Below are positions 12,182 through 37,484 of a stretch of DNA of 64,000 nt, one piece after another. The DNA lies in NCBI RefSeq assembly GCF_001428895.1, contig NZ_LMJA01000010.1, forward strand, positions 41,339 through 105,338. The letters are read 5' to 3'. The translations under genes and the position numbers were made by a program. Position 1 is the first letter of the stretch; each line of letters begins with the position of its first letter. The stretch is from Mycobacterium sp. Root265 (lineage in GTDB: Bacteria > Actinomycetota > Actinomycetes > Mycobacteriales > Mycobacteriaceae). The notes under the pieces are model-generated. The model ran no database searches, was not told the DNA's origin, and was given only the letters and a program-made list of their open reading frames with translations.

Positions 12182-12985
12182 CTACTCAAACACCTCACCG
12201 GATAGCGGGCGCAAATGCACAATATCGGCCGCGGCGATGACCTCGGTGCCCGCGCCGGTGTCGATGCAGAGCCGGCCCTGCGCGTCGATGGCCGTGGCGG
12301 TGCCGACGATCTCCTTGCCGCCGGGCAGCAGTGCGCGCACCGGTCGGCCCAAGGTGGCGCTGCGTTCCCGATAATCCGTCAGCAGCGCCGCGGCCTCCCC
12401 GGCCTGCCAGGCCTGGATGCGGGTGGCCAGCTCGCCCAACAGGATCCGGGCGATCTCGGTGCGTTCGGCGCTCACCCCGAGTGCGCGCACCGAGGTGGCG
12501 TGGGGCTGGCCGATCTCCTCGGGCAGTACCGCGACATTCAGGCCGATGCCCAGCACCACGACCGGTTTGGGCGAGGCCACCTCGGCAAGGATGCCTGCGA
12601 TCTTGGCGCCGTCGATCAGGACGTCGTTGGGCCATTTCACGCCGGCCCGGATGCCGACGGCGGCCAGGGTGTCGGAGACCGCGACACCGGCCAGCAGTGG
12701 CAGCAGCCCCCACTGTTGTTCGTCGACGCCTTCGGCGGAGATGGCCACCGACACGATGACCAGTCCGCGCGGCACCGCGGTCCAGGCGCGTCCACCCCGT
12801 CCGCGCCCGGCGCTCTGATGCTCGGCGAGCAGCACCGCTCCGGCGATGTCCTCACCGGCGGCGGCCCGCGCGATCAGATCGGCGTTGGTCGATCCCGTCT
12901 CCTCGACGATGTCGAGGCGGTGCCACGGCGCGCGCAGATCGGCGCGCAGGGCGTCGACATCGAGGGGTAGCCGGTCAGCAGTCAT
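12182..12985 (-). CDS. birA: Biotin-[acetyl-CoA-carboxylase] ligase
   Basis: Attaches biotin to the carrier lysine of AccA-type subunits via biotinyl-5'-AMP. The 267 residues carry ETGSTNADL, the biotinyl-AMP loop GRGRGGRAW, KWPNDVLIDGAKIAGIL, and a small C-terminal SH3-like domain. There is no N-terminal helix-turn-helix, so it is a monofunctional class I ligase rather than a repressor. The ATG overlaps the 3' end of the lipase gene by 11 bp. AccA3 in this window is a likely substrate. Confidence 0.95.
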   Translation of the reverse strand: MTADRLPLDVDALRADLRAPWHRLDIVEETGSTNADLIARAAAGEDIAGAVLLAEHQSAGRGRGGRAWTAVPRGLVIVSVAISAEGVDEQQWGLLPLLAGVAVSDTLAAVGIRAGVKWPNDVLIDGAKIAGILAEVASPKPVVVLGIGLNVAVLPEEIGQPHATSVRALGVSAERTEIARILLGELATRIQAWQAGEAAALLTDYRERSATLGRPVRALLPGGKEIVGTATAIDAQGRLCIDTGAGTEVIAAADIVHLRPLSGEVFE

Positions 12986-14240
12986 TTCGCACCGGCTGAT
13001 CAGCGAAAATCTTTGTCATCCAATCCAGTTGGCTCGCGAGATCGACACCCGCGTGCCCCTTGTCCGGTTCGAACTGCACTGTCACCGTTCCTCCCATGGC
13101 GCATGCGCGCTGAATGGCCGCTGCCGTCCACGCCGCGTCGACAAGGGTATCGGCCCCGCCGTACCAGACCGATAGCGGCGCCGACAGTGGGCGCTGCGGA
13201 AGTGCCCAGTCCCGCAGCAGCTGTCGCAACTGGTCGGCCGCGGCCACCGACTGCGGTGCGACATCGTGCTGGCGCAGATGTTCTGCGGCACTCTGCCGTT
13301 CGTAGATCTGCGGCGCCTGGCACGCGGTGATGACCGACCAGTACTGCGCGCCGGCCCCGGCCCGGAAGTCGTCACGGTTGAGTTCCGGATGAAGCCGCGC
13401 GAGCGATTCGACGATGACCGGCATGGCCAGCAGTTGGTCGGCGGTCAGTTCACCGCGCAGCGACTTATCCGCGAAGCCACTCACGTCTGCGGCCGGCGCG
13501 GCCGCGACCGTCCCGAGCAGCTTCAGTTCGGGGGCGTACACCGAGGCCTGTTCGTTGGCGGCCCAGGTGGCCGCGCCGCCCTGCGAGTGGCCGAATCCCA
13601 GCCACTTGGTGGACACCTCGGGGAAGGTGTGGCGCAGCGCCCGCACGCTGTCGATCATGTTCAGCCCGGCGGTCCTGGCATCCAGGTACGGGTGAATCCC
13701 CTTGGCGCCCAGTCCTTGGTAATCGGGCACCGCCACCGCGAAACCGCGGTCGATGAACGGTGTCACGAAGGCCAGCGCGCCGAGCATGGTGTCCGACCGC
13801 GACGGGGCGCAGGGATTGTCGATGCCGACGGTGCCGTGGCCGATGGCCACGATGGGCCAGCCGCCCGGCGGCGGGGCGCTTTTGGGGGTGAACACCGAAC
13901 CGGAGACCACGGTGGGCGCGCCGGTGTCACCGGATGTCGAGCGGTACAGCACCCGCGCCGCGCGCAGATCGCGGGCCTCCACCCGCCGGGTCACCCCGGG
14001 CATGGTGGTGGCCGTGACCAACGAGCCGGGTCCGGCGTCGGTGAGGTCGGCGGTGTCGATGGCGACGGGCGCTCCGCCCGAGGACGGGAAGCTGTTCAGG
14101 AATTCCAGACCCAGCGGCACGGCGAACGGCAATAGTGCACGGCCGAGCAGGATCTGGGCGAGGACGACGACGAAGATGGTGACGGCGACGGCGGTGCGTT
14201 TGAGCCAACGCGGCCTGTCGTTGCTCCGGGAAAGCCGCAC
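12975..14240 (-). CDS. Secretory lipase-family alpha/beta hydrolase (paralogue 1)
   Basis: A 421-residue exported hydrolase of the LIP / secretory lipase type. An N-terminal hydrophobic segment (about residues 15-38) anchors or exports it. The fold shows GHGTVGIDNPC (oxyanion region), nucleophile elbow GHSQGG, acid GGADTLVD and base DKGHAG. GTG start at 14240. It is the first of four paralogues (12975, 16655, 19238, 21248) placed among polysaccharide genes. Esterase or acyltransferase activity on envelope lipids or acylated glycan is inferred; substrate is unknown. Confidence 0.82.
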   Translation of the reverse strand: MRLSRSNDRPRWLKRTAVAVTIFVVVLAQILLGRALLPFAVPLGLEFLNSFPSSGGAPVAIDTADLTDAGPGSLVTATTMPGVTRRVEARDLRAARVLYRSTSGDTGAPTVVSGSVFTPKSAPPPGGWPIVAIGHGTVGIDNPCAPSRSDTMLGALAFVTPFIDRGFAVAVPDYQGLGAKGIHPYLDARTAGLNMIDSVRALRHTFPEVSTKWLGFGHSQGGAATWAANEQASVYAPELKLLGTVAAAPAADVSGFADKSLRGELTADQLLAMPVIVESLARLHPELNRDDFRAGAGAQYWSVITACQAPQIYERQSAAEHLRQHDVAPQSVAAADQLRQLLRDWALPQRPLSAPLSVWYGGADTLVDAAWTAAAIQRACAMGGTVTVQFEPDKGHAGVDLASQLDWMTKIFADQPVRNDC

Positions 14241-14298
14241 GTCCCTACGCTACCGGACGTCCGTCACGGGACTGCGAAGCGAAAGCGACCCGGGTGGG

Positions 14299-15891
14299 TC
14301 AGTAGGCGCCGGTGCCGCCCAGCACGGTGCGCACGGTCTTGAGGGCGATCAGCAGATCACCGCTGATGGACCAGTTCTCGACGTAGGACAGATCCAGGCG
14401 CACCGAGTCGTCCCAGGACAGATCGGCGCGACCGCTGACCTGCCACAGGCCGGTGATACCCGGCAGCACCAGCAGACGGCGACGGACCTGGTCGGTGTAG
14501 GCATCGGCTTCGCACGGCAGCGGCGGGCGCGGGCCCACCACGCTCATGTCCTTGCGCAGCACGTTGATGAACTGGGGCAGTTCGTCGATGCTGTAGCGGC
14601 GCAGGATCCGGCCCACCGCGGTCACCCGGGGGTCGCGGCGGATCTTGAACAGCACGCCGCCGTCCATCTCGTTCATGTCGGCCAGGCCGGCGACCAACTT
14701 GTCGGCGTTCTCCACCATGGTCCGCAGCTTGATCATCTGGAACGGCTTGCCGTCCAGGCCGATGCGCTCGGACATGTAGAAGATCGAGCCACGGCTGGTG
14801 AGCTTGATCGCGATGGCGCTGACCAGCAGCAGCGGGAATGCGGCGGTGAGCACGGCGAGCGAGACGAAGATGTCGAAGGCGCGCTTCTGCACCTTCGTCG
14901 TGCCGCTGTACTGCGGCTTCTCGACGTGGATGAGGTTCAGACCGGCGACCGGGCGCATGGTCAGGCGCGGACCGGCCACATCGACCATGCCCGGTGAGAC
15001 CACGAGGTCGACGCCGAGGCGATCGAGATCCCAGGACAGCTCGCGCACGCCCTCGGGGCCGAGGTGCTCGGTGGTGGTCAGTGCGACCGTGTCGGCGTTG
15101 GCCTTGGCGATCGCCTCTTCCACCTGATGCTCGTCGCCCAGGATCGGCAGTGGGCCGACGCCGGGCACGTCGAGCGTGCCGCCACCGACGCGGCCGGTGA
15201 GGCAGACACCCACGACCGAGTAGCCGTAACCCCAGGCGCGGTCGAGGGACTGGACCAGGCTGCGCACCGCGGCCGCGTTACCGACCGCCACCACAGCGTT
15301 GACGCACTGTCCGCGCTTGCGGTACCAGCCGAGGACCCGGCGGCAGGCGGCACGGCCCAGCACCAGGAACACCAGACCGAGCGGGAAGGCCAGCGCCAGG
15401 TAGCCGCGCGCGTACTCCGGCCGGAAGATCATCAATGTGACGGCGACGACGCCGATGGTCGCCAGCGTGGCCGAGAGCACCCGTCGGTACTCCTCGATGC
15501 CGGCACCGACGATGCGCGGGGACCGGCTGCGGTAGGCCGTCAGCAAACCCAGCCAGATCAAGCCGAAGATCACCGACAGCAGGCCGAAGTACTTGGTGAG
15601 CGGATCGAAATCGGTAACTGGGCGCCCCAGGCGCACCATCTGGGCGCACGCCATGGCAGCGCCCACGACAACGACATCGGTGACCAACAGCGCCAACCCG
15701 TAGCGCCGCTGCCACTGCAGTCCGTCGTGGTCGCGGGCGGGCGCCGCGCTCACCAGAGCGATCGGCGCTTCCGTCTCTCTCACCAACGTCACGTGCGCGT
15801 CCACCTTCGTTTGCTGCACCGGTCCAAGCATGCTGACTAAGACTATCGCTTTGTTTCCTGCTTCTTGCAACATTTCGGCCCAAATATCCAC
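14299..15891 (-). CDS. Polyprenyl-phosphate sugar-1-phosphate transferase (priming)
   Basis: A 530-residue priming enzyme that loads the first sugar-phosphate onto a polyprenyl carrier. Four or five N-terminal membrane helices, a CoA-binding-like middle domain (CVNAVVAVGNAAAVR), another helix (FPLLLVSAIAIKL) and a C-terminal bacterial sugar transferase domain with KLRTMVENADKL, DELPQFINV, MSVVGPRPPLPCE and PGITGLWQVSGR. GTG 15891 is the longest start; Met7 or Met21 are alternatives with no clear ribosome site. Likely first step of the polysaccharide cluster. Confidence 0.9.
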   Translation of the reverse strand: MDIWAEMLQEAGNKAIVLVSMLGPVQQTKVDAHVTLVRETEAPIALVSAAPARDHDGLQWQRRYGLALLVTDVVVVGAAMACAQMVRLGRPVTDFDPLTKYFGLLSVIFGLIWLGLLTAYRSRSPRIVGAGIEEYRRVLSATLATIGVVAVTLMIFRPEYARGYLALAFPLGLVFLVLGRAACRRVLGWYRKRGQCVNAVVAVGNAAAVRSLVQSLDRAWGYGYSVVGVCLTGRVGGGTLDVPGVGPLPILGDEHQVEEAIAKANADTVALTTTEHLGPEGVRELSWDLDRLGVDLVVSPGMVDVAGPRLTMRPVAGLNLIHVEKPQYSGTTKVQKRAFDIFVSLAVLTAAFPLLLVSAIAIKLTSRGSIFYMSERIGLDGKPFQMIKLRTMVENADKLVAGLADMNEMDGGVLFKIRRDPRVTAVGRILRRYSIDELPQFINVLRKDMSVVGPRPPLPCEADAYTDQVRRRLLVLPGITGLWQVSGRADLSWDDSVRLDLSYVENWSISGDLLIALKTVRTVLGGTGAY

Positions 15892-16654: not shown

Positions 16655-17911
16655 CTAACCGCAGGCGGTGGCGGCGGCTTCACCTACGGGGCGCTCGATC
16701 GGCAGCCCCTCGAGCCGTTCGGCCAGCCAGCCCAGCTGGTCGGCGACCTCAAGGTCGCCGTGGCCCTTGTCGGGCTGGAAATCCCACGTCACCGTGCCGC
16801 CCAGCTCGCAGGCGCGGGCCAGCGCGTCCGTCGTCCAGCGCGGGTCGATGTACTCGTCCTCACCGCCGTAGACGACCGACATGGGTGCGGCCAGCGGCTG
16901 CTGCGGCAATGCCCACTGTCGAAGATAGGCCCGCAACTGATCGGCGGCTTCCGGCGTCCGCGGCTTCACGTCATCGGATCCGAGTCGGTCGATCACGGCT
17001 TCCCGGGTGTGCACCGCATCGCCGGAACAGGCGATCAGGATGTCCCAGTTCTCGGCGGCGACACCGTGCCGGAAATCGTCCCGGTTGAGCTCGGGGTGCA
17101 GCCGGGCCAGCGATTCGACGACGAGGACCAGCGCCGCCACCTGCTCCTTGGTCAAGGTGCCGTCCACGGACTTGTCGACCAGCCCCGCGATATCGGCGAC
17201 CGGCGCCAGCGCGAGCACCCCGCGCGGAGGCATCTCCGGGGAGTACGTCCCGGCCTGCTCCCCTACCGCCCAGGCCGCGCCACCGCCCTGCGAGCCCCCG
17301 AGTGCGGCCCACCTGTCCGAGACATCGGGGAAGGTGTGCCGTAACGCCCGCACCGAGTCGATCATGTTCAGCCCGGCGGTCTTGGAATCCAGATAGGGAT
17401 GGATTCCCGGTGATCCGAGTCCCTGGAAGTCGGCGAGGGCCACCGCGAAACCGAGCTCGGTCAACTTGACCACCCAATCGGTCAGCCCCAGCAGCGTCGC
17501 CGACATCGACGGGCCGCACGGCTCGTCGATGCCCAGGGTGCCGTGACCGAAGGCGACCACCGGCCATCCGCCGGCCGGGGCGCCCCCGCTGGGCGTGAAC
17601 ACCGCAGCGGACACCACCGTCGGCTCTCCGCTGTCGCCGTTGGTCGAGCGGTACACGACCCGGGCCGAGTTCAGGTCGGAGCCTTGCGGGCTGCGGCTGA
17701 ATTCGGGCATCGTCATCGCACTGACCAGAGAGCCGGGGCCGCTGCCCGTCAGGTCGGCGCCCTCGATGGGTGTGGGCAGCACCGTCGCGGGCGGCTTAGT
17801 CGACAGACCCACCGTCTGGCGGGCGGCCGGGGACACCGCCAGCACCACCGCGGCAACCAGGATCAGGACGGACAGCACAATGCCGGCCGGCAGCAGGTAT
17901 CGGCGCATCAA
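16655..17911 (-). CDS. Secretory lipase-family alpha/beta hydrolase (paralogue 2)
   Basis: A 418-residue paralogue of the 12975 gene with an N-terminal export/anchor helix (LLPAGIVLSVLILVAAVVLAV). Visible are GHGTLGIDEPCGPS, nucleophile elbow GGSQGG, acid GGEDEYID and base DKGHGD. Its ATG overlaps the acyltransferase stop (ATGA, 17908-17911), indicating co-translation with that membrane acyltransferase. This coupling suggests that acyl groups are added to and removed or moved from the same glycan, but no substrate is visible. Confidence 0.82.
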   Translation of the reverse strand: MMRRYLLPAGIVLSVLILVAAVVLAVSPAARQTVGLSTKPPATVLPTPIEGADLTGSGPGSLVSAMTMPEFSRSPQGSDLNSARVVYRSTNGDSGEPTVVSAAVFTPSGGAPAGGWPVVAFGHGTLGIDEPCGPSMSATLLGLTDWVVKLTELGFAVALADFQGLGSPGIHPYLDSKTAGLNMIDSVRALRHTFPDVSDRWAALGGSQGGGAAWAVGEQAGTYSPEMPPRGVLALAPVADIAGLVDKSVDGTLTKEQVAALVLVVESLARLHPELNRDDFRHGVAAENWDILIACSGDAVHTREAVIDRLGSDDVKPRTPEAADQLRAYLRQWALPQQPLAAPMSVVYGGEDEYIDPRWTTDALARACELGGTVTWDFQPDKGHGDLEVADQLGWLAERLEGLPIERPVGEAAATACG

Positions 17912-19194
17912 CTCTTCCGGAACCGCTTGACGAGGCCCAGACCCGGGCGCTCCACGGCGTAGTAGGTGATGGTCGACAGCAGGATCGTCACGACGGCCAC
18001 CACCGCAACATTACGGAACATGCCGCTCCAGGAGTCGCCGGCGGCCAAGTCGTAGCGGCCCAGCAGCAACAGCACCGGGTAATGCCACAGGTACACCGAC
18101 AGCGAGATCATCCCGACGAAATAGAACGGTTTGAGGTCGAGGAACCGCGCGATCGGGGAATCCTTGCCGCGGGCCAACGGCAGGACGACGATCGCGATGA
18201 ACACCGCGGAGACGAAACCGATTCCGGCAGTGGCGAATACGGTGCCCTTCACGGCGAGCACGAGTGCCACGGCGAAGGACACCAGCAGCAGCGGGAAACA
18301 CAGGAAATGGATCCGCCTGGCCGCCGGGACGGAAATCACGCCCTGTTCGATCGCGACGAACAGGATCGCGGCGAACATCCCGTAGGCGAACAGGTCCGCG
18401 TTGGTGATGAAGCTGCGCATGAACACCGCAGCCCAGGTGGGTCCCCAGTTCTGCATCATGACGGTGTCCGCGCCGGACGCGGTGAACACCAGCGGGGCGA
18501 ACAGTCGGCCGATGACCCCGACCGCCAGCAGGATGGCCGGTGCCAGGCAGGCCAGCACCAGCGGCTTGACGTCGGTGCGCTTACGCAACGCGAAGAGCAG
18601 GAAGCCCAACAGCGGCAGCACCGCGTAGAACGCGATTTCCAGGGTCAGCGACCAGGACGGGCTGATACCGGTCTGCACGTAGTCGGGAATGTAGGTCTGC
18701 GTCAGCGTCAGATTCGCCAGCAGTTCCCAGGGATCGGTGATCATCCCGGTACCGGCGTCGGTCCCGTGCGGCTGGATCGCCGAATTCTGCACATACGCCA
18801 CCTGCAGCACGAAATTGCAGATCAGGAAGATCGTCAGATATCCGGGGAAGACCCGGAAGAACCGGTGCAGGGCGTACTGCTTGGTATCCGGCATGGCCGC
18901 CTTCGACCGGTCCTTGGTGAGGCGCCGGATATAGGGCAGGAACAGCAGGAAACCGCTGAGCACGAAGAACAGGATGAGCGCCAGGCCGAGCACACCGAGG
19001 AAGGCCTTGTCGTGGGTGACCGGCGAATAGCTCAGCGCCACATGGCCCATCACCACCGCCAGACAGCCCAACCCGCGGATGCCGTCGAGGCCGATGATCC
19101 TGGTGTGCGTCGGCGAACTGGCGAGCACCTGGGATTCGATGCCCGGCACACCGGAGGCCCCCGCGCCCCCGTGCGCCGCGTTGGTTTCTGTCAT
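17908..19194 (-). CDS. Acyltransferase 3 family membrane protein
   Basis: A 428-residue integral membrane O-acyltransferase (acyltransferase_3 / OafA type) with about ten hydrophobic helices. The RIIGLDGIRGLGCLAVVMGHV start carries the family's catalytic His region, and FSVYLWHYP-like sequence (SLSVYLWHYPVLLLL) lies near the C terminus. ATG 19194 is chosen because GGAGA lies 6 nt upstream; an open extension to 19278 looks non-coding. Probably acetylates or acylates lipid-linked or surface sugars. Confidence 0.88.
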   Translation of the reverse strand: MTETNAAHGGAGASGVPGIESQVLASSPTHTRIIGLDGIRGLGCLAVVMGHVALSYSPVTHDKAFLGVLGLALILFFVLSGFLLFLPYIRRLTKDRSKAAMPDTKQYALHRFFRVFPGYLTIFLICNFVLQVAYVQNSAIQPHGTDAGTGMITDPWELLANLTLTQTYIPDYVQTGISPSWSLTLEIAFYAVLPLLGFLLFALRKRTDVKPLVLACLAPAILLAVGVIGRLFAPLVFTASGADTVMMQNWGPTWAAVFMRSFITNADLFAYGMFAAILFVAIEQGVISVPAARRIHFLCFPLLLVSFAVALVLAVKGTVFATAGIGFVSAVFIAIVVLPLARGKDSPIARFLDLKPFYFVGMISLSVYLWHYPVLLLLGRYDLAAGDSWSGMFRNVAVVAVVTILLSTITYYAVERPGLGLVKRFRKS

Positions 19195-19237
19195 GAGCGT
19201 TCTCCGGTCGCGGTGGTCAGCGGCGTCGTCTCGACGA

Positions 19238-20497
19238 CTAGGTGGTCTTGAGGATCGACGGCCCGCCCTCGACCCCACACGTACTGTCCGCCGGTGCGTC
19301 GTCGAACCGCTTCATGATCCAGTCCAGCGACACGATGGGGTCGAAATCACCGTGTCCCCGGCCGCCAGCGATGAAGGATGCCACGGTGTCGCCCATCTCG
19401 CAGGCTCTTCGCACCGCTTCGGTGGTCCACGCCACCGGGACCACGTCATCGGCGTCCCCGTGCACCACGAACATCGGCGCGCTGGCCGGGGCGCGGGGCA
19501 GACCGCTCATCTGATTGAGGTACCCGCGCAACGTGTCGAGGGCCTCGGGGGTCGCGGGGCGCAGATCCTCCGGCGGAATCTGCTCGGCCACCGCGAGCCG
19601 GTCCTCGGTGGCGTCGGTGGAACACCCGGCGAGCAGATCCCACTTCTCTTCGACCAGGCCGCGCCGGTAATCGTCCAGCTTGAAACCGGGATGCGCATTC
19701 TGCAACGACGACAGGATGAGCACCATGGCGATCCGCTGCTGCGGGGACAGGATGCCCTCGGCGGCCATATCCGCAAGACCGGTGATGTCGGCCGCGGGCG
19801 ACACGCTCACCGAGCCGATCAGCCGGGTGTCCTGCGCGCCGTAACCGGCGATCAATTCGTTGGCGGCCCAGGACGCCTGGCCGCCCTGGGACACCCCGAA
19901 GGCGACCCATCGCTCCGAGGAGTCCGGCACCAGCTTGCGGGCCGCACTGGCCGCGTCGACCATGTTGTAGCCGGCCGTGGTGGCATCCAGATAGGGGTGG
20001 TAGCTGTCGATGGTGCCCAGCCCCTGGTAGTCCGGCACCACCATGACGTAGCCGAGGGTGACCAGCGCGCGGACCGCCTCGGCCGCGCCCAGCAGGGTCG
20101 GTGACAGCGACGGCGCGCAGTCCGACAGCACGCCGGTGGTGCCGTGCCCGAACACGATGACGGGCCAGCCCCCCTCGGGCGGGGGGCCCGCCGGGGCGAA
20201 CACGCTGCCCGACACGACCTGAGAGCTGCCGTCGACCCCGGAGGTCGAGTTGTAGGTGATGCGGGCGGCGACGGAGGTGACCCGCAGCAGCCGGCGGTCG
20301 ATGGTGGGCAACCGGGTGGCGCTGACGAGCGCGCCCGGACCGGTGGCCGAATAGTCGGCGGGCAACTGGATTTCCGAGACCACCGCGGCCGACGGGCCGG
20401 GGTCGGGCTCCGAGCAGCCCGCGACCACCAGCGCGAGCGCCAGCAGCGAACTCGCCAGCGCCTTGCGGGTCGTCCTCGTCGAGATTGTGTGTGCCAT
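19238..20497 (-). CDS. Lipase-family lipoprotein (paralogue 3)
   Basis: A 419-residue predicted lipoprotein: signal peptide with lipobox LVVAGC near residue 28. The hydrolase domain has GHGTTGVLSDC, nucleophile elbow GVSQGG, acid HGDADDVVP and base GRGHGD. ATG with a strong AGGAG 6 nt upstream. It lies just after the Wzz-like gene (7 bp) and before the acyltransferase. Anchoring to the outer face of the membrane fits action on exported acylated material. Confidence 0.83.
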   Translation of the reverse strand: MAHTISTRTTRKALASSLLALALVVAGCSEPDPGPSAAVVSEIQLPADYSATGPGALVSATRLPTIDRRLLRVTSVAARITYNSTSGVDGSSQVVSGSVFAPAGPPPEGGWPVIVFGHGTTGVLSDCAPSLSPTLLGAAEAVRALVTLGYVMVVPDYQGLGTIDSYHPYLDATTAGYNMVDAASAARKLVPDSSERWVAFGVSQGGQASWAANELIAGYGAQDTRLIGSVSVSPAADITGLADMAAEGILSPQQRIAMVLILSSLQNAHPGFKLDDYRRGLVEEKWDLLAGCSTDATEDRLAVAEQIPPEDLRPATPEALDTLRGYLNQMSGLPRAPASAPMFVVHGDADDVVPVAWTTEAVRRACEMGDTVASFIAGGRGHGDFDPIVSLDWIMKRFDDAPADSTCGVEGGPSILKTT

Positions 20498-20504
20498 CGA
20501 GCTC

Positions 20505-22498: not shown

Positions 22499-22502
22499 GC
22501 CG

Positions 22503-23963
22503 TCATCCCGAGGTGTGCGATGAGGTCTGCGACCTCGCGGTGCGGCTGTCGGTTTCTTCCTCGGCAGCGGCCGCGGAGTTGCCGGAGGCGTGGGCACCGC
22601 CCTGGTGCTTGCGGTCCGAAGAGAGCTCACGACGGTGTCCCGGCTCGCAGGTGGCGACCACGCCGAGCACCGGTGCGTGCGCGGTCTGGAGCACCTTGAG
22701 CGCCTTGCGCAGCGCCGTGGTCTTGGTGTGGCCGAGCCGGCCGAGCACCAGTGCGCCGTCGCCGAGTGCGGCGGGCACGGCGCCGTCGGCGTACTTGGTG
22801 AGCGGCGGGGTGTCGATGATGACGTAGTCGAAGTGTCCGCGCAGCAGTTCCAGCACCCGCTGCACCCGCTGGTCGCCCCACAGCTCGCGACGCACCGAGG
22901 GCACCGGACCGGACGGCAGCAGCGCGAAACCGGACTGCGGCACCTCGATCAGTGACTCGGACAGGTCGTGCTGGCCGGCGAGCAGCGTGGTGAAGCCCTT
23001 CGTTCCGGCCTGCGTGACGGCCGCGGAGTCGAGCTGAAGCAGCTGCGGCAGTTCCGGATTCACCAGGTCACCGTCGACCAGGACCACCGAGTGGCCCGAC
23101 TCGGCGAACGCGACGGCCAGGTCGATGGCGGTCGAGGACCGGCCGTCCTGGGGGGACGGGCTGGTCACGGCGATCACCCGGGGGTGCTGGCCGGTGGCAT
23201 TGCGGGCGAACTGCACGTTGGTGCGCAGTTCGCGCAGGCGCTCGACGGCCAGGCCACCGGAGTCGATGTCGATGATGCCGTCGCGGCTCTGCTTGTCGGC
23301 CACCAGCGTGCCCAGCAGCGGGATACCGGTGACGTCCTCGATGCGCTCACGACGGCGCAGCTTGGAGTCGGACAGACCCAGCGCGATCGCCAACAGCACG
23401 CCGAGCACCAGACCGCCCACCGCACCGGCGGCCAGGCGGGTGGTCAGACCCATGGCGGCCACCTTGGTGCCATAGCTGGCGTCGTCGACGAGCACCGCGG
23501 CTGCCGCGGCCTCACCGCCACGGCGCGAGGTCTCCAGTTCGGCGGTCACATTCACCAGTTGGTCGGCGACGGCATTGGCGTAGCGCTGAGCGGCGGCCGG
23601 GTCGGGATCGGTGGCGGTGACGTCCAGCAACACGGTCTGCGGCAGCGGAACCGCGGTGATCTTGGCGCGCAGCTCATCGACGGTCAGCGGCGCCTTGAGC
23701 TGGTCGATGGCCCGGGCAGCGACCTGGTCGCTGGTGGCCAGACCGGCGTAGGAGAAGACGCGCTCCTGGGAGAACAGGTTGTTCTGGTAGGCGTCGCCCA
23801 CCGAGGTGCCGCTCTGGGTGGTGACGAACAGCCGTGTCGTCGATGAGTACTGCGGGGTCGAGAAGAGGGTGCTGGCATAACCCACCGCGACGCCGATCAG
23901 CGTCGCCAAGAGCACCACCCACCACAACCGGCGAAAAATTCGCAGGTAATCACCGATGGCCAA
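22503..23963 (-). CDS. Wzc-like Wzz + tyrosine-kinase-fold protein, atypical Walker A
   Basis: A 486-residue polysaccharide co-polymerase: GDYLRIFRRLWW, first helix, Wzz domain, second helix (about residue 185) and a cytoplasmic BY-kinase fold. The ATP site is unusual: the Walker A loop reads SPQDGRSST, with Arg275 where the catalytic Lys is expected; Walker A' (VDGDLVNPEL) and Walker B (VIIDTPPL) are recognisable. The C-terminal tail has no tyrosine cluster. TTG 23963 has GGAG 8 nt upstream; a longer TTG form starts at 23999. Confidence 0.85.
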   Translation of the reverse strand: MAIGDYLRIFRRLWWVVLLATLIGVAVGYASTLFSTPQYSSTTRLFVTTQSGTSVGDAYQNNLFSQERVFSYAGLATSDQVAARAIDQLKAPLTVDELRAKITAVPLPQTVLLDVTATDPDPAAAQRYANAVADQLVNVTAELETSRRGGEAAAAAVLVDDASYGTKVAAMGLTTRLAAGAVGGLVLGVLLAIALGLSDSKLRRRERIEDVTGIPLLGTLVADKQSRDGIIDIDSGGLAVERLRELRTNVQFARNATGQHPRVIAVTSPSPQDGRSSTAIDLAVAFAESGHSVVLVDGDLVNPELPQLLQLDSAAVTQAGTKGFTTLLAGQHDLSESLIEVPQSGFALLPSGPVPSVRRELWGDQRVQRVLELLRGHFDYVIIDTPPLTKYADGAVPAALGDGALVLGRLGHTKTTALRKALKVLQTAHAPVLGVVATCEPGHRRELSSDRKHQGGAHASGNSAAAAEEETDSRTARSQTSSHTSG

Positions 23964-24121
23964 GGGAGCACTCCATTCGCTCTTGGATCGCCACAACAAT
24001 GCAACGATAGCGTCAACAACAGTAGCTGCACACTTTGCCGAGCGCCCCTGTAGCGCGGCCAGCTAAGTCGATGCAAGGATAGTTAAATGCAACGACGGTG
24101 CGGTAAAGCCGTGAGGATCAT

Positions 24122-24149
24122 TCCGCAATGAAGACGAGTCCGCAATGAA
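24122..24149 (+). promoter_or_regulatory. Duplicated start region / leader mini-ORF before wzy-like gene
   Basis: The 11-mer TCCGCAATGAA occurs twice, 17 bp apart (24122-24132 and 24139-24149). The first ATG (24128) opens a six-codon frame (MKTSPQ) whose TGA overlaps the gene's ATG at 24145 (ATGA). A ribosome-site-like GAGGA (24113-24117) is correctly spaced for the first ATG, not the second. This could couple translation, or be a recent tandem duplication. Confidence 0.6.
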
Positions 24150-25641
24150 ACTCGGCGCGTCTACACGGCCCAACCTGCTGGTCGGAGCCGCGATCATCAT
24201 ATTGGTGCCCGTGATCGCCGGCACGGTGGCGCTCGGCGGCAAGGTCGGGGTGATGGCCGTCGGCGGGCTGATCGCACTGGCGGTCGGCGTCTATATCGGT
24301 CTTCGCCACCCGCTGTGGCTGTACTGGGGTATGGCGATCGCCGTCGGCATGCTGCCCTTCGGCTACTTCCCCGGCGTGCACCTTCCGCTGTATCTCCCGT
24401 TCGCCGGCGGCGCGCTGGTGGCGGCTCTGGTCCATCCCAACGCCGCCAAACGCTTCCCCGTCCTGGGCAGCACACTGGCCAAGAGCGTGCTGGTGCTGGT
24501 GGTCATTTCCGGGGTGTCGATGGTGCTCACATTCAGCTCCATCGTGAACATCCTCGATTACACCAAGTGGGCCATCGCCACGGGCGCTTTCTTCGCGCTG
24601 CTCGCGCTGCCGCGGGAGCATCTGGCCAAGTTCGGCCGCATCTTCGTCTATGCGGCCAGCTTCAATGCGCTGATCGGTATCGGGTCAATTGTGCTCGGCT
24701 CCAATCAGATACTGCTGCAGCCATTCCGGATCTTCGGCTATGCGGTGGCCAATACCGAACGTTTCTTCTTCACCGGTGGCACCTCGAATCTGCCACGCAC
24801 CGACCGATTCCAGGTTGCCGCCGACAGCCAGGCGTTCAGCCGGCTCGGCGGGCTGTGGCTGGACCCCAACGCCGCCGGTATCGGTCTGGTCATCTCGTTC
24901 GTGATCGCCATGATCGTCTTCGCCGGTTGGCGGCGCGTGGTGATCGCCGCGATCCTCGGTTCGGCCATCGCGCTGACGCTGAGCCGCTCGGCCATCGTCA
25001 GCGTATTGGTCGGTGTCGTACTGGTTTTCGTGTTCCACCCGATGCGTTCACGCGATCGCCAGATCCTGGTCGGCACGCTGACGCTGGCCTTCATCGGCGC
25101 CTTCATGGTGCCCTCGGTGCGTACCCGCCTGATGGGCACGCTCAGCTCCAATGACGCCGGCGCCACCGACCGGGTGGACTCGATCCGGGAGTTCCCCGGA
25201 CGCATGGACGGGCACTGGCTGTTCGGTTGGGGTTGGTCGCAGCGCGAGTTCAAGGATGGTGCGTACGCCTTCATCGAGAACTTCGTGTCCAATGCCCCGT
25301 TGATCGCGATTCACCGCGGCGGCATCTTCGTCGGTGCGGCGTTTCTGGCGGTCGTCGTGATCGGGTGCGTAATTGGTTACCGGTTGTTGCGATCGAATTC
25401 GCTACCGGGCGCACTTTATGGCGGCGTATTCATCGGATTCTCGATCGTTGCTCTGAATCTCGATCACCCCGTGGTGGTCATCCCGCAGATCGTGTTTCTG
25501 TACACCATTTTCCTGACATTTCTGGCCTACGCCGATCAACTCCGGCGCGAGGACAAAGAGCGCGCCGCGCTGGAGACGCGCATCGCCGAGGCCACCAGGT
25601 CCGTGCCGACGGCGGCACCGGTCAGCGCCGGACGCCACTAA
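24145..25641 (+). CDS. O-antigen polymerase/ligase-like membrane protein (Wzy-like)
   Basis: A 498-residue polytopic membrane protein with about 11-12 helices and a larger extracytoplasmic loop near residues 330-400 (DSIREFPGRMDGHWLFGWGW), as in O-antigen ligase/polymerase (Wzy/WaaL) proteins. In a Wzx/Wzy pathway it joins flipped repeat units. It is divergent from the Wzc-like gene across about 180 bp, and its 3' end overlaps the convergent GT4 gene by 4 bp. Confidence 0.85.
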   Translation: MKLGASTRPNLLVGAAIIILVPVIAGTVALGGKVGVMAVGGLIALAVGVYIGLRHPLWLYWGMAIAVGMLPFGYFPGVHLPLYLPFAGGALVAALVHPNAAKRFPVLGSTLAKSVLVLVVISGVSMVLTFSSIVNILDYTKWAIATGAFFALLALPREHLAKFGRIFVYAASFNALIGIGSIVLGSNQILLQPFRIFGYAVANTERFFFTGGTSNLPRTDRFQVAADSQAFSRLGGLWLDPNAAGIGLVISFVIAMIVFAGWRRVVIAAILGSAIALTLSRSAIVSVLVGVVLVFVFHPMRSRDRQILVGTLTLAFIGAFMVPSVRTRLMGTLSSNDAGATDRVDSIREFPGRMDGHWLFGWGWSQREFKDGAYAFIENFVSNAPLIAIHRGGIFVGAAFLAVVVIGCVIGYRLLRSNSLPGALYGGVFIGFSIVALNLDHPVVVIPQIVFLYTIFLTFLAYADQLRREDKERAALETRIAEATRSVPTAAPVSAGRH

Positions 25642-26765
25642 CCGGTCAGCAGCGCCTCGACCGCACGGTGGGGCCGTCGCTCCTGCCAATACCGGCTGTT
25701 CAGCGCGTACAGCCGGTCCCCAGCCGCGGTGGCGGCCTGCACATCCAGCAGCAGCCGGCGGCACTCGGCGACGAAGTCGGCGTCCTCGTCGTGGACGCCG
25801 AGTTCCAACAGATCGCCCAGCGAGCCGACGGCGGGGGTGGTGCCCACCACGGGCAGCCCCATCCGGGCCGCGTCGAGGATCTTCACCCGCACCCCGCCAC
25901 CGGTGCTGATCGGCGCGATCATGGCCCGGCAGGTCCCCAGGAAACCGACCAGGTCGTCGACGAAACCGAGGTCGCGCACACCGTCGGGATACTGCGGTGC
26001 CTTGGCTTTCGAGTGTCGGGCGCCGATGACGCAGAGTTCGGCGCCGGCGATGCCCGCCGAGATCTGCGGCCACAGCCGCAGCGCGGTCAGGAACGCCTCC
26101 TGATTCGGCGCCCAGTCCCTGGTCCCCATCAGGACCAGCCGGCGCGGGGTGGCCGCCACCTCGACCTGGGCGGCCGGCGGCAGCGTCAGATCCAGCCAGC
26201 GCGCGGACGGAACACCGTTGGCGCGGTAGAACTCCGCCTCCTCGGCGTCGTAGGTGCCCACCGCGTCGGCAGCGCGGGCCACCCGCAGTTCGTCGCGCAC
26301 CAACCTGCCCACCTGCAGGCGCCCCAACACTCCCCGGGTGGCCCGCCAGACCAGGGATTCGCTGACATGGGTGTTGACCACGAACCGCGCGTTGCCGCGC
26401 CGTTCGCTGCGCAGGAACGATTCGGCCATGTAGCTGTGCTCGGCGACGAACACGTCGGCCGGTGACGCGGAGATCGCGGCGACCAGTTCGTCGTTGTCGA
26501 ACCGGGCGTGCGCGAGGCTGCGCCCGCTGCGCGCGGTGTCCTTCAGCAACCGCAGCGGCTGCACACCGGACTTGGCCACCCGCTGCACGACGGCGCCGCC
26601 CTCGACCAGATCGGCGGTGGTGCGGCCCGGCGGCTGATGCGACAGACAGATGACCGACACCTCGTGGGAATCCGAGGCCAGCCGCATCACCAGCCGGGAC
26701 AGCTCCACATCCCCGCCGTGCTCGACGACCGGATCCTTCGACAGCAGGAACGTCGCCCTGGTCAT
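25638..26765 (-). CDS. GT4 glycosyltransferase (cluster GT 1)
   Basis: A 375-residue group 1 glycosyltransferase of GT-B fold. The N-terminal domain shows VEHGGDVELSRLVMRLA; the C-terminal nucleotide-sugar domain shows RLVLMGTRDWAPNQEA, DDLVGFLGTCRAMIAPISTGGGVRVKILDA and GLPVVGTT. It probably adds one sugar of the repeat unit at the inner membrane face. Its stop overlaps the wzy-like stop region; its ATG overlaps the upstream Wzx-like stop (26762-26765). Confidence 0.88.
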   Translation of the reverse strand: MTRATFLLSKDPVVEHGGDVELSRLVMRLASDSHEVSVICLSHQPPGRTTADLVEGGAVVQRVAKSGVQPLRLLKDTARSGRSLAHARFDNDELVAAISASPADVFVAEHSYMAESFLRSERRGNARFVVNTHVSESLVWRATRGVLGRLQVGRLVRDELRVARAADAVGTYDAEEAEFYRANGVPSARWLDLTLPPAAQVEVAATPRRLVLMGTRDWAPNQEAFLTALRLWPQISAGIAGAELCVIGARHSKAKAPQYPDGVRDLGFVDDLVGFLGTCRAMIAPISTGGGVRVKILDAARMGLPVVGTTPAVGSLGDLLELGVHDEDADFVAECRRLLLDVQAATAAGDRLYALNSRYWQERRPHRAVEALLTG

Positions 26766-27943
26766 TCCGGCGCCTTTCTGGCAGGGGGTTTGCGGTAGAG
26801 GACATAGGCGTAGATGCCCAGCAGCAGCGCGTCGGCGATCACCGTCGCGATGGCGGCCCCCACGGCGCCCGCCACCGCGAGCAGTGCGACCAGCCCCAGC
26901 TTGACCGGCAGCAGGCTGATGTTGGCCACCAGCCGGGTCGTGTCGCGACGTTGCAGGTAGAGCACCGCCTGGAACACCGAGGTGACGGTCCGCATGCCGC
27001 AGAACAAGCTCATGATGATCATCGCGACCGCGAGTTGCTGTGGCGCGGGGGTGAACAGCATGACCACACCGACGATCAGGACCAGCAGCCAGGCGACGCC
27101 GCCCAGGATCAGGGTGCTCTTCAGCGGCGGCCCGGCGGCCAGCTGCCCGTCACCCTCGCGCAGGGAGCGGTTGTAGGACATGCCGAAGGACTGCCCGACG
27201 GCGACGATCGCGATGGTCACGGTGACCGTCAGCGCGTAGTACCCGACGATGGTGTCGTTGGTCAGCCAGCCCAGCAGCAGCACATCGCCCTGCAGGTAGG
27301 CGGCCAGGCCCAGCATCTCGCCGACCAGGATGGCGATCAGTTTGGGCGGACCGGGCATACCGGGGCGGGGCCCCAGCACCGAGAAGCCGACGACGACGGC
27401 GATCACCACATAGGGCGCCACCAGGAACAGGCTGGCGACCTGCAGGGTGGGGTCGTCGACGAGGAAAACGTATGCGGCAGCACACATCACGCTGACGACC
27501 TGGCGGATGGTGTCGAGTTGCGCGACCCGTTGCGGCTGCCCGTCGCGTGCCCAGTGGCTCTGGTAGGCCTTCATGATGATCTCGCCGCCGGCCACGAACA
27601 GCCCGAACCAGGCGATGTAGCTGACCTCGACCAGAGCCGCCCCGGCCACCATCAGGGTCAGGCCGAGCAGATACCGGGTGGCCCGTTCGGCGAGGAACCG
27701 CTCCTCGGATTCCCGTACCGCGCGCACCGCGAACGGGTTGTCCAGCGGTGGGCCGATCAGTGAGAAGGCGGCATACGCCATGCCGTACTGGCCGTAGTCG
27801 GCGATCCCGAGCTGGGCGATGATGATCACCGTCCACAGCAGGCCGACGCCGCGGCCGCCGTAGAGCCAGAACACCGCCCACAGCGTGCGCACCAGATGAT
27901 GCGAGGTGGGCGCGGGCGCCACCGGCTCGATCGGTTCGGTCAC
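26762..27943 (-). CDS. Wzx-like polysaccharide flippase (MOP superfamily)
   Basis: A 393-residue protein with about 10-12 hydrophobic helices, resembling oligosaccharide flippases. N-terminal VRTLWAVFWLYGGRGVGLLW and YGMAYAAFSLIGPPLDNP fit the first helix pair. It would flip lipid-linked repeat units to the outer face for the Wzy-like enzyme. GTG 27943 is used: it lies four bases after the upstream GT stop, and the longer open frame to 28138 is antisense-like Pro/Arg-rich sequence. Confidence 0.85.
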   Translation of the reverse strand: MTEPIEPVAPAPTSHHLVRTLWAVFWLYGGRGVGLLWTVIIIAQLGIADYGQYGMAYAAFSLIGPPLDNPFAVRAVRESEERFLAERATRYLLGLTLMVAGAALVEVSYIAWFGLFVAGGEIIMKAYQSHWARDGQPQRVAQLDTIRQVVSVMCAAAYVFLVDDPTLQVASLFLVAPYVVIAVVVGFSVLGPRPGMPGPPKLIAILVGEMLGLAAYLQGDVLLLGWLTNDTIVGYYALTVTVTIAIVAVGQSFGMSYNRSLREGDGQLAAGPPLKSTLILGGVAWLLVLIVGVVMLFTPAPQQLAVAMIIMSLFCGMRTVTSVFQAVLYLQRRDTTRLVANISLLPVKLGLVALLAVAGAVGAAIATVIADALLLGIYAYVLYRKPPARKAPE

Positions 27944-27947
27944 CCGT

Positions 27948-29084
27948 TCAGGCGCTTTCGCTCTGTCCGGAGAGGACCCGCGTCCAGATCTCGACGAGGG
28001 CGTCGGCGGTGCGCTCGGCAGAACGCTCCTGACGGGTCCGGTCGGCGTTACGCCCCAGTTCGGCGAGCCGGGCGGGATCGTTGAGCAACGACTCGATCCC
28101 CTCGGCCAGGCCGGTCGCCACGGCGTCCTCACCCTCACCGCGCGGGCTCACGGTGAGAACACCGTGCGCACTGTCCAATTCGGCCAGCGAGCCGTACCCG
28201 GTGCACACCACCGGGGTGCTGTAGGCCATTGCGTGCGCCACCACGCCGGAGGCCGGATAGGTCTCGGCGTAGAAGTGCCGCTTACCGTAGGGAACCACGA
28301 TGGCGCGCACCGAATCGAAGAACGCATCTTCGTGCGCGCCGTCCACACCGCCGAGGATCTCGATGCCGTCGGCCCGCGGCAACTCTTCGGTGCCGCGCCC
28401 GGCGACCCGGATGGCGATATCGTCGGGCAGCAACTCGCGGATCCGGGCGATCTGCTCGAAACCCTTGCCGCGGTAGACGAATCCGAAGAAACCGACCGCC
28501 TTGGAACGCTCTTCGGCGGGCCTGATGGCGGGCCGTTCCCGCACCAGGTGCGGAACGTAGTAGGTGGTGGTGCGCGGATAGGTGCGTTCGATGGACTGCC
28601 TGCCGGTCTCGGTGAGCGCGATCAGCGTCCGGTCCCCGTGCACCCGGCCCTCGATGGCCTGCGACAGCGGTCGCAGCGGGTAGTGGATGCCATGGGTGAG
28701 CAGCCGGGACTGCGCGATACGGCGGGTGCGGGCCAAAAACCACAGACCCTGCGGCGGATCGTGAATCGTGGAGGTGACCGGAACGCCCTTGAGGCCCGCC
28801 ACGGCCCAGAAGGTGGGCAGCACACCGGTGGACAACTCGGCGTGCACCAGGGTCCGTCCGGGCGGCCCTTCGGCCACCAGTCGCCGTACCTGCGCGCGGT
28901 GCCTGCGCAGATCGGCCAGACTGTCCTGGCCCGGCCCGGCGGTGCGGTGCTCGACGACCTCGCCGAAATGCGGGCGCAGCGCGGTCAGCAGGTCCTGCGC
29001 GTAGTCGCCGACCGCGGTCTGGCCCTCGTCGGGCGCGACGAACACGAGCCGGTGATCACCGAACGGGACCGACGCCGCACCCAT
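27948..29084 (-). CDS. GT4 glycosyltransferase (cluster GT 2)
   Basis: A 378-residue GT-B glycosyltransferase. The N-terminal domain has GQTAVGDYAQDLLTALR and TSTIHDPPQG; the C-terminal domain has KAVGFFGFVYRGKGFEQI, RVAGRGTEEL, and AETYPASGVVAHAMAYSTPVV with the usual Glu motif shifted. The ATG overlaps the upstream acyltransferase stop by one base (TGATG). Likely builds the cluster's repeat unit; sugar unknown. Confidence 0.85.
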   Translation of the reverse strand: MGAASVPFGDHRLVFVAPDEGQTAVGDYAQDLLTALRPHFGEVVEHRTAGPGQDSLADLRRHRAQVRRLVAEGPPGRTLVHAELSTGVLPTFWAVAGLKGVPVTSTIHDPPQGLWFLARTRRIAQSRLLTHGIHYPLRPLSQAIEGRVHGDRTLIALTETGRQSIERTYPRTTTYYVPHLVRERPAIRPAEERSKAVGFFGFVYRGKGFEQIARIRELLPDDIAIRVAGRGTEELPRADGIEILGGVDGAHEDAFFDSVRAIVVPYGKRHFYAETYPASGVVAHAMAYSTPVVCTGYGSLAELDSAHGVLTVSPRGEGEDAVATGLAEGIESLLNDPARLAELGRNADRTRQERSAERTADALVEIWTRVLSGQSESA

Positions 29085-29761
29085 CAGTAGAACAGCGGGC
29101 GGTGATTGTTGGTGTAGCCCAGGGAATCGGCCGGACGCTTACCGATCACCTTGGCGGGCACACCGCCGACGATCGCGAGTTCGTCGACGTCCTTGTTCAC
29201 CACGGCATGCGCGGCCACCACGGCGCCGCGGTGGATGAGCGACGGCAGCACCATCGCGCGGCTGGCGATCCACACGTAGTCCTGCACGACGGTCGGGATC
29301 GGGACCGGCAGGAAGTCGGGGTGGTTGATGTCGTGGCCGCCGCCGATGAAGTGCACGTCGCTGGCGATGGTCACGTTGTTACCGATGTAGAGGCCGGCGC
29401 GGGAGTCCAGCAGGCAGCGAAACCCGATCGCGACACCGTCACCGATGGTGAGGAACTCGATGTCGAGCACCGTGGTGCCACGCAGGATCGAGGTGCGCTG
29501 CCCGATCCGCGCACCCATCAGCCGCAGGAAGCCCTGCCGGATGGTGTGCGACGGGATGAAGGTGATGAAGCTGTTGAAGAACAGCTCACCGAGCCGGTTG
29601 CGGATCTTGCGGCCGCGGGTCATGCCCTGCATCTTGTAGTCGATGACCCGGTTGTTTTCGTCGAGAATCCACTCGGGCGGCGGGGGCATGTGCAGATCGG
29701 GAGCAGCGGCAAGCTTGCGGGCGACGTCTGCCGGATCTGCCGACGCTGGTACTCCGGTCAT
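29084..29761 (-). CDS. Hexapeptide-repeat acyltransferase (LbH/WcaF-like)
   Basis: A 225-residue left-handed beta-helix O-acetyl/acyltransferase. Hexapeptide repeats run from about residue 85 (ARIGQRTSILRGTTVLD) to 205, with the catalytic-type His in FIGGGHDINHPDF and the closing GVPAKVIGKRP. ATG 29761 is chosen since AAGGAG is 10 nt upstream; TTG 29794 would add 11 residues. It lies between two GT4 genes, so it probably acylates a sugar of the repeat unit. Confidence 0.87.
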   Translation of the reverse strand: MTGVPASADPADVARKLAAAPDLHMPPPPEWILDENNRVIDYKMQGMTRGRKIRNRLGELFFNSFITFIPSHTIRQGFLRLMGARIGQRTSILRGTTVLDIEFLTIGDGVAIGFRCLLDSRAGLYIGNNVTIASDVHFIGGGHDINHPDFLPVPIPTVVQDYVWIASRAMVLPSLIHRGAVVAAHAVVNKDVDELAIVGGVPAKVIGKRPADSLGYTNNHRPLFY

Positions 29762-29834
29762 AGGTGTTGTGCTCCTTTGAGAAATTCGCGTCAACCATAA
29801 CTAGCCGAACGGGCTCGCGCCGCTCGGTTGGCCG

Positions 29835-31013
29835 TTACCCGGCCCGTTCAGGATTTCGGGTGCCGCTCAGTTGGTCGACGGCGGCGTACAGCGATTCCGC
29901 GTACCGCTGCTCGGTGAACCGTTCGGCGTGCGCCCGCAGTGTGTCGGGGTCGAAGCGGCAGGCCTCGAAGCGGTCGAGCGCCTCGGCGATGGAATCGGCG
30001 GCCGGCCGGTCGAAGAACATCCCGGTCGTGCCCTCGACCACGGTGTCCAGGAAGCCACCCCAGCGCAGCACCACCGCGGGTCGCCCCGACACCGCCGCCT
30101 CGATGGGGGTCAGCCCGAAATCCTCGTAACTGGCCGCGATCAACGCCCGGCAGGACTGGTACAGCCAGGCCATCTGCCCGTCGGTGAGCGCCGAGAGCAT
30201 CCGCACGTTGGGTGTCTTCATCCGCTCGATGCGCGCGGCCTCCGGGCCGTGGCCGACCACCACCAGGCGGCGATCGGTGTTCGCGAACGCCCCCACCACG
30301 GCGTCGACGTTCTTGTAGGCCATCAGCCGGGACACGCACAGGTAGAACGGTTCGCCTCCGCCGGTGGCCCAGTCCTGCAGTTCGGGGACCGGTTCGGCCG
30401 CGGTGTGCGGTTTCATCGCGATCGGGGACGGCAACACGCCGGCGTCGATGCCGTAGGCGGCGTGGATGCGGTGCTTGATGGCCGTCGACACGGCGAGGTA
30501 ACGGTCGACGGTCATCGCCGCCCGGCGGTCCCACGACTTCAGCAGGGGCGAGCCCACTTTCAGCGCGGCCCGCTTCAGGGTGTCCCCGTCGGGTTTGAGG
30601 TAGTGGTCCAACGCGTAGAGCCAGTGCGCCGGGGTGTGGCAGTGCACGAGTTTGGCGCCGTCGGTCCGGAAGCCGTGTGCCCAGCCGCTGCTGCTGGTCA
30701 CCACCACGTCGGCGTCGACGAACATCGCGCCGGCCGCGAACGGCAGCACGGGCAGGGCCACCCGGTGGTGCTTGCGGAACAATGAGACCCGGTTGAGCGG
30801 GGAAACCCGGATATCGCGGTCGGCGAATTCCGGGTAGGTGCCGTCCGGGTCGTACAGCAGGGTGTAGATGGGGGCGTCCGGGAACGCCTTGCTCATCGAG
30901 AGCACCACCTTCTCCGCCCCGCCACGCTGGGTGAGGTAGTCGTGGGCGATCGCCACCCGCGGCCCGTCCACCCCGTCGTACCTGTGCGGCGGCGCGCTAC
31001 GGTCGTCGGGCAC
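29835..31013 (-). CDS. GT4 glycosyltransferase (cluster GT 3)
   Basis: A 392-residue GT4 enzyme with VAIAHDYLTQRGGAEKVV at the N terminus (Gly-rich acceptor loop) and, in the donor domain, PFYLCVSRLMAYKNVDAVV, RLVVVGHGPEAARI and the EX7E-like ASYEDFGLTPIEAAVSGRPAV. This resembles mannosyl/rhamnosyl-type GT4 enzymes. GTG start with an AGGAGG ribosome site upstream. First gene of the sugar-assembly operon on this strand, which reads through to 25638. Confidence 0.88.
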   Translation of the reverse strand: MPDDRSAPPHRYDGVDGPRVAIAHDYLTQRGGAEKVVLSMSKAFPDAPIYTLLYDPDGTYPEFADRDIRVSPLNRVSLFRKHHRVALPVLPFAAGAMFVDADVVVTSSSGWAHGFRTDGAKLVHCHTPAHWLYALDHYLKPDGDTLKRAALKVGSPLLKSWDRRAAMTVDRYLAVSTAIKHRIHAAYGIDAGVLPSPIAMKPHTAAEPVPELQDWATGGGEPFYLCVSRLMAYKNVDAVVGAFANTDRRLVVVGHGPEAARIERMKTPNVRMLSALTDGQMAWLYQSCRALIAASYEDFGLTPIEAAVSGRPAVVLRWGGFLDTVVEGTTGMFFDRPAADSIAEALDRFEACRFDPDTLRAHAERFTEQRYAESLYAAVDQLSGTRNPERAG

Positions 31014-32270: not shown

Positions 32271-32272
32271 GC

Positions 32273-33848: not shown

Positions 33849-33856
<8 letters not shown>
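32273..33856 (-). CDS. FAD-dependent 3-ketosteroid delta-1-dehydrogenase-like
   Basis: A 527-residue flavoprotein of the KstD/fumarate reductase family. The dinucleotide fold is VLVAGSGAGGATGAYTAA (about residues 12-29), with VEATDKFGGTTAYSGGG next and the C-terminal GLYAAGNTM and AYPGGGNPIG segment typical of KstD. It would dehydrogenate ring A of 3-ketosteroids. ATG 33856 has GGAAGG upstream and overlaps the fadD-like stop by 8 bp. It ends 2 bp before the KshA-like gene. Confidence 0.87.

Positions 33857-37484
<3,628 letters not shown>

Follow-up and report, generated by a model that had tools for sequence, protein, structure and literature searches.

We analyzed a 64,000-nucleotide stretch of the Mycobacterium sp. 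Root265 genome (contig NZ_LMJA01000010.1, positions 41,339 to 105,338 of the forward strand; hereafter the window), in which a Wzx/Wzy-type polysaccharide locus lies between birA (12182..12985, minus strand; PF03099, PF02237) and accD5 (35336..37231, plus strand; PF01039). A sequence-only reading of the window had placed four lipase paralogs inside this locus, and our analysis confirms that observation: all four are PF03583 proteins (39.5-77.3 bits against a cut-off of 23), alpha/beta hydrolases of the CAL-A family. They comprise LIP1 (12975..14240; 77.3 bits) and LIP2 (16655..17911), each with a predicted N-terminal transmembrane (TM) anchor, and the predicted lipoproteins LIP3 (19238..20497; 58 bits, lipobox VVAGC in the sequence) and LIP4 (21248..22630, start probably at 22498). 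They have the CAL-A fold (folds were predicted for LIP2 and for the flippase Wzx), and the alignment places a Ser-Asp-His triad in the window LIPs, with the triad intact in the LIP1/2 group and in the LIP4 of the window as well. The LIP genes and all other genes of the cluster are on the minus strand, except for wzy, which is on the plus strand.

The claim that this is a set for Wzx/Wzy-dependent polymer synthesis is supported by homology and fold, as the cluster has a priming transferase, a flippase of the MOP superfamily, a Wzy polymerase and a polysaccharide co-polymerase. The priming enzyme is a polyprenyl-phosphate hexose-1-phosphate transferase (PGT; 14299..15891; PF02397, TIGR03025 above the cut-off, and WbaP structures). 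The flippase Wzx (26762..28138) has its conserved part from near 27949, and Wzy (24145..25641) has 13 hydrophobic segments and a PF04932 score of 36.8 bits (cut-off 31.7). Two proteins represent the co-polymerase: a Wzc-like protein (22503..23999; PF02706, PF10609, TIGR01007 above the cut-off), whose P-loop domain lacks the Walker-A lysine, and a small Wzz-like chain-length protein (20505..21419, start probably at about 21233-21251), assigned by two TM segments, a weak TIGR01006 match and synteny. There are three GT4-like glycosyltransferases, GTa (25638..26765; PF13692, PF13579), GTb (27948..29084; PF13692) and GTc (29835..31013; PF00534, PF13439), and two putative acyltransferases: the standalone membrane protein AT3 (17908..19278; PF01757, 86.4 bits; start probably at 19194, ATG) and a WcaF-like hexapeptide O-acetyltransferase (29084..29794; PF00132), whose best NCBIfam match, PRK10502, is below the cut-off. 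A PDB sequence search gave no match for Wzx and AT3.

Of 118 genus genomes, 13 have relatives of this Wzy, and each of them also has LIP relatives. In the ten more distant genomes where the LIPs were mapped they are 39-64% identical, and the gene order is much alike in most of these genomes; three (G035, G055 and G090; G and L numbers are our designations of genomes and of loci or regions) are rearranged or have extra LIPs, a LIP1 match is absent in G067, and the loci of G070 and G112 are on broken contigs. When named genomes were scanned with two strict peptide patterns, 56 loci were obtained from Mycolicibacterium, Rhodococcus/Rhodococcoides and Williamsia, some of them from the same species as genomes of the genus survey. 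LIP4 is the immediate neighbor of Wzc in 53 of these 56 loci, the three others being two contig ends (L167, L170) and one locus with a different Wzc type (L165). The full order Wzc-LIP4-Wzz-LIP3-AT3-LIP1/2 is present in 35 of the 53, and the remaining 18 deviate by additional LIPs, by an AT3 that is absent or displaced, by an undetected Wzz or by truncation. In Rhodococcus, the half of the locus that has the glycosyltransferases is inverted, and the core just described remains in one piece. Wzy of the window type was not detected in nine of the 56 loci: three are short contigs (L126, L128, L129), one is L165, and five are full stretches (L123, L127, L131, L166, L168); in G090, which looks identical to the genome of L131, Wzy is further away.

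The same association was seen in the family at large, where all of the 21 best Wzc matches across 261 genomes have a LIP match at most 3.7 kb away. In contrast, no LIP was found at any of 20 control loci around other Wzc proteins, with regions that extend about 8-10 kb on most sides; 20 such regions were hand-picked from match tables and fetched, one of which (L270) was dropped as having no Wzc, and the other 19 were supplemented with L190, which surrounds the second Wzc of this genome. In L190 (G000 contig 5, 130000-149999) the P-loop lysine is intact, and the vicinity of this Wzc includes a Mutator-family transposase and a methyltransferase of the CMAS type. More distant lipase-linked loci were found in further genera (L241-L245, L253), and a strict LIP1/2 profile (E 1e-90) matches 14 of 298 genomes sampled from the order, all of them from one family. 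The linkage of the LIPs to the Wzx/Wzy set, on which the sequence-only reading had staked its proposal, thus holds.

The lipases of the locus form three clades, LIP4, LIP3 and LIP1/2, each with members from Rhodococcus, Williamsia and Mycolicibacterium. FastTree supports are 0.999, 0.997 and only 0.66, respectively; in an IQ-TREE analysis of 65 sequences, the SH-aLRT/bootstrap values are 95.5/97, 98.6/100 and 99.8/100 (support labels may shift by one node with rooting). As each clade spans three genera, the lipases are an old set whose members have stayed distinct. The possibility raised earlier, that all four arose by recent local duplication in this lineage, is therefore rejected, since the clades are common to Rhodococcus and Williamsia; only the weakly resolved split between LIP1 and LIP2 looks mycobacterial in these trees.

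Next we consider the catalytic residues. The Ser-Asp-His triad is present in all 77 complete LIP1/2 sequences (four more are cut by contig ends) and intact in 60 of 61 LIP3 sequences, a count that, like the LIP3 anchor count, excludes eight non-locus tips; together, LIP1-3 retain it in 137 of 138 complete locus sequences. The pattern differs for LIP4, of which 37 are intact, including that of the window, and 17 of 53 relatives have lost both the serine (replaced by Gly) and the histidine, with the aspartate retained in 16 of the 17. Together the 17 make up a single clade (support 1.0). The LIPs look membrane-tethered when anchors are called by a simple rule based on hydropathy and lipobox: a lipobox was called in 47 of 54 LIP4 (a TM segment in four more; three with none or truncated) and in 46 of 61 LIP3 (a TM segment in one more; 14 with none or truncated), and a TM or signal segment in 65 of 81 LIP1/2, with a lipobox in 16 of 81. 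The earlier suggestion that the hydrolases trim or transfer acyl chains needs to be changed for LIP4, which cannot be simply such an enzyme in every locus, as those 17 relatives have neither Ser nor His. Outside the polysaccharide loci, a PF00756 (antigen-85-like family) esterase gene adjoins a Ser-less LIP3-like gene in the three regions scanned (L177, L178, L186), possibly a pseudolipase-esterase pair.

The co-polymerase is unusual too. The Walker-A lysine is replaced by Arg in all 54 locus Wzc sequences, that of the window included (L167 and L170, in which the P-loop is not covered, are omitted), and ten further lipase-linked Wzc have Arg (six), Ala (two), Thr (one) or Gly (one) at this position, whereas all 23 other Wzc keep Lys, several of them with tyrosine-rich tails. 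The C-terminal 40 residues include no tyrosine in the window Wzc and none or one in the other locus sequences, so that the window protein has neither the Walker-A lysine nor the tyrosine cluster of an active bacterial tyrosine kinase. The loss of the lysine in every lipase-linked Wzc is a new observation of this analysis, as is the loss of Ser and His in part of the LIP4 proteins. Sixty two lipase-linked Wzc form one group with support 0.94, and two more are beside it, joined with L175, one long-branch Lys-bearing Wzc; in L175 a Ser-less LIP3-like gene is about 17 kb from Wzc. The loss probably was a single event in one clade, and the 54 Arg sequences therefore are not 54 independent cases. 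Since the lysine is gone, the protein presumably has no ordinary tyrosine-kinase cycle.

AT3 is present in 44 of the 56 named loci, directly after a LIP in 41 of the 44 and before one in 40, where only genes matching window proteins are counted as neighbors; the exceptions are one contig end and three Williamsia loci. M. frederiksbergense is an example of a species with the AT3-bearing type of locus, M. hodleri of one with the AT3-less type. The 261 family genomes have 32 AT3 matches, and for 23 of these a LIP match is no more than 5 kb away. No SGNH/GDSL domain was matched in the scanned proteins of the window cluster, AT3 included.

Several known systems resemble parts of the locus. The core parts are alike, by homology and fold, to the Wzx/Wzy-dependent capsule and exopolysaccharide (EPS) systems of the group 1 type (PGT, Wzx, Wzy, Wzc); the differences are a Wzc without the Walker-A lysine and the tyrosine tail, a second small Wzz, and interleaved CAL-A-type hydrolases, four in the window. 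A membrane acyltransferase gene beside tethered Ser-His-Asp hydrolases, predicted to be on the outer face, recalls the AT3-SGNH and MBOAT-SGNH systems (OatA, OafB, PatA/PatB, AlgI/AlgJ/AlgX), in which SGNH proteins are the partners of the AT3 or MBOAT protein (PMC12148441, PMC9833829, PMC9558356). Here, however, the hydrolases are of the CAL-A type, the transfer is putative, and some lipase loci have no AT3. CAL-A and Xanthomonas oryzae LipA belong to PF03583 as well; in contrast to them, the LIPs are predicted to be membrane-tethered, are encoded in a polysaccharide locus and have one branch without Ser and His. Relatives of CAL-A transfer acyl groups in water (PMC7383625). Chp2 (Rv1184c) of the M. 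tuberculosis acyltrehalose pathway also combines an N-terminal TM segment with an alpha/beta hydrolase and deals with acylated sugars outside the membrane (PMC4183827), but it is cutinase-like and its product is a small glycolipid, not a polymer. As for possible products, the EPS FR2, S-2 and SM-1 from the related genus Rhodococcus carry ester-linked stearic and palmitic acid (PMC12786566). These are from R. rhodochrous and R. erythropolis, species not listed by the scan with two strict peptide patterns. We found no description of this gene combination in the open-licence literature.

Our best reading, which we hold tentatively and at somewhat less than an even chance, is that the LIPs acylate a surface polysaccharide outside the membrane, using AT3 where it is present, with LIP4 partly structural. 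By homology, PGT would prime the lipid carrier, GTa-c would extend the unit, Wzx would flip it, Wzy would polymerize a surface heteropolysaccharide, and the Wzc-like and Wzz-like proteins would set the chain length, presumably without an ordinary tyrosine-kinase cycle. LIP3 and LIP2, and in mycobacteria also LIP1, tethered on the outer face of the plasma membrane, would accept acyl groups on their serine and hand them on to hydroxyl groups of the sugar chain. Where present, AT3 would carry the acyl groups across the membrane, with the LIPs in the role of the SGNH proteins of OatA, OafB and PatA/PatB; loci without it would need another acyl donor. LIP4, tied to the co-polymerase genes, may be mainly a scaffold or a glycan-binding subunit, because its catalytic residues can go while the gene and its place stay. 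The outcome would be a polymer that carries acyl groups and can interact with the mycomembrane. The idea of acyl transfer comes from the precedents of the SGNH partners, the CAL-A relatives and Chp2. The acylation role proposed in the sequence-only reading is thus supported in part: AT3 with its LIP neighbors, predicted tethering, intact triads and the CAL-A fold agree with it, and full-length lipase loci without AT3 do not.

These loci are among several observations that weigh against our reading. AT3 was undetected (tblastn, E 1e-5) in 12 of the 56 named loci; five of these are short contigs or the non-lipase locus L165, and the other seven are lipase-type stretches of the full 21 kb length (L124, L127, L142, L143, L152, L162, L168). 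The whole accD5-birA interval of G035 has five LIPs and no AT3. In three Williamsia loci (L130, L135, L139) AT3 is about 1.8 kb off, beyond another gene, and nine of the 32 AT3 matches in the family are not within 5 kb of a LIP. Therefore AT3 and the LIPs are associated, not inseparable; AT3 is not the sole partner of the LIPs, and the seven full-length loci without an AT3 match reject it as their obligate partner. LIP family members also occur outside the locus (four of the eight PF03583 proteins in this genome), a LIP3-like match is found in 68 of the 261 family genomes, more than carry the locus, and all eight non-locus LIP3-like proteins are without the catalytic serine. In one screen, the EPS carbohydrate of R. 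ruber IEGM 1391, which has locus L157, reached only 2.3 mg/L (PMC12298843), and this weakens a simple equation of the locus with EPS. Finally, LipA and LesA are short-chain hydrolases, so that deacylation is as natural as transfer.

The last point leads to the main rival, hydrolytic editing, in which acylation of the polymer would fall to AT3, the hexapeptide enzyme or other proteins, LIP1-3 would tune the polymer by taking acyl groups off, and LIP4 would be a glycan-binding protein. The closest solved relatives of the LIPs include the cell-wall esterase LipA, with acetyl xylan esterases among the next folds, and the retained triads and the persistence of LIPs in AT3-less loci that have hexapeptide acetyltransferase relatives fit editing. 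However, it would be unusual for a single polymer to have at least three esterases that are tethered, old and conserved separately, and two LIPs flank AT3 in most AT3-bearing loci. Hydrolysis and transfer are indistinguishable by sequence, and we consider editing a serious but rather unlikely explanation. Somewhat less likely is that the LIPs, independently of AT3 and in the manner of Chp2, draw on an envelope lipid for a transesterification that joins the polymer to lipid, or acyl chains of lipid to the polymer. The confinement of the strict LIP1/2 profile to one family, predicted anchors like that of Chp2 (PMC4183827), the use of long-chain donors by CAL-A relatives (PMC7383625) and the seven full-length loci with LIPs and without AT3 would agree with this; it leaves the frequent AT3 neighborhood unexplained, would have to postulate a donor, and would require distinct jobs for several distinct LIPs. 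That the LIP fold is mainly a binding module, with all LIPs as structural partners of a Wzc/Wzz/Wzy complex and catalysis incidental, is very improbable: the loss of Ser and His in the well-supported LIP4 clade with the gene retained, and the Ser-less non-locus LIP3-like proteins, point that way, yet LIP1/2 and LIP3 of the locus keep the triad almost without exception. Nutritional lipases merely sitting in the locus, an idea to which the PF03583 proteins elsewhere in this genome lend something, are rejected and can hardly be maintained given the fixed positions across genera, the control Wzc loci without LIPs and the predicted membrane anchors.

We also examined the chromosomal site. Of the 104 genus genomes whose birA and accD5 share a contig, 71 have the two genes no more than 5 kb apart, nine have them 5-15 kb apart and 24 more than 15 kb apart. 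The 24 long gaps contain a lipase-type Wzy in ten genomes, a Lys-type Wzc in six and something else in eight, four of which (G021, G028, G041, G079) have a PGT relative. With an interval of 33 bp to 72 kb, often with polysaccharide genes of different types, birA-accD5 looks like a capsule-type variable site. One fixed site for all members is rejected, as the lipase-type locus of G098 is far from birA-accD5 and neither gene was matched in the sequence retrieved around the loci of Rhodococcus and Williamsia. The gene string of the G035 locus matches that of L142, the M. hodleri locus, with two hexapeptide enzymes and two GDP-mannose-4,6-dehydratase-like genes; the latter (L031, 4757-6770) are between accD5 and the glycosyltransferases and hint at a GDP-linked deoxyhexose in the G035 polymer. 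A variant locus at birA in G079 (L171/L284) has LIP, PGT and Wzz-like proteins and a GDSL lipase together.

Some neighboring genes were noted as well. Lipase-type loci of Mycolicibacterium, Rhodococcus and Williamsia (L124, L127, L168, L248, L249, L250) encode a protein that resembles glycoside hydrolases (PF00150/PF01229 type) and has an LGFP repeat. Its gene adjoins wzy in three of them (L124, L249, L250), and no such gene was seen in the window cluster. Between the cluster and accD5 (31146-35540) are kshA, kstD and an AMP-ligase gene, also present there in close relatives, and the same trio adjoins a different PGT locus in G021. Beyond accD5, a 494-aa protein (40690-42174) has a weak, sub-threshold PF01663 match, is otherwise silent or weak in Pfam and NCBIfam and has no match in the PDB sequence search; its relatives (63-67%) are inside lipase-type loci of other species (L132, L134, G066, G055).

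In summary, the locus may represent a distinct Wzx/Wzy class in mycolate-bearing bacteria, with a non-kinase co-polymerase, CAL-A-type hydrolases as extracytoplasmic acyltransferases (together with a standalone AT3 where present) and dead copies in a structural role, and may be the genetic basis of fatty-acylated capsules or EPS in mycobacteria and rhodococci; taken as a whole, this proposal is still doubtful. According to a review, only one gene-deletion work touched Rhodococcus EPS (PMC12786566), and antiSMASH gave no EPS-specific cluster in an EPS survey (PMC12298843). Two questions are now open to direct test: which genes underlie the acylated extracellular polysaccharides of rhodococci and their relatives, and whether a standalone AT3 has a partner, SGNH or otherwise (posed in PMC9558356 and PMC9833829). 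If the reading is true, non-tuberculous mycobacteria would have a variable capsule-type site at birA-accD5 and polymer length would be controlled without the usual kinase cycle. With lipase-like enzymes built into sugar-polymer assembly, some soil mycobacteria and their relatives may have a new way to add fatty groups to a bacterial coat.

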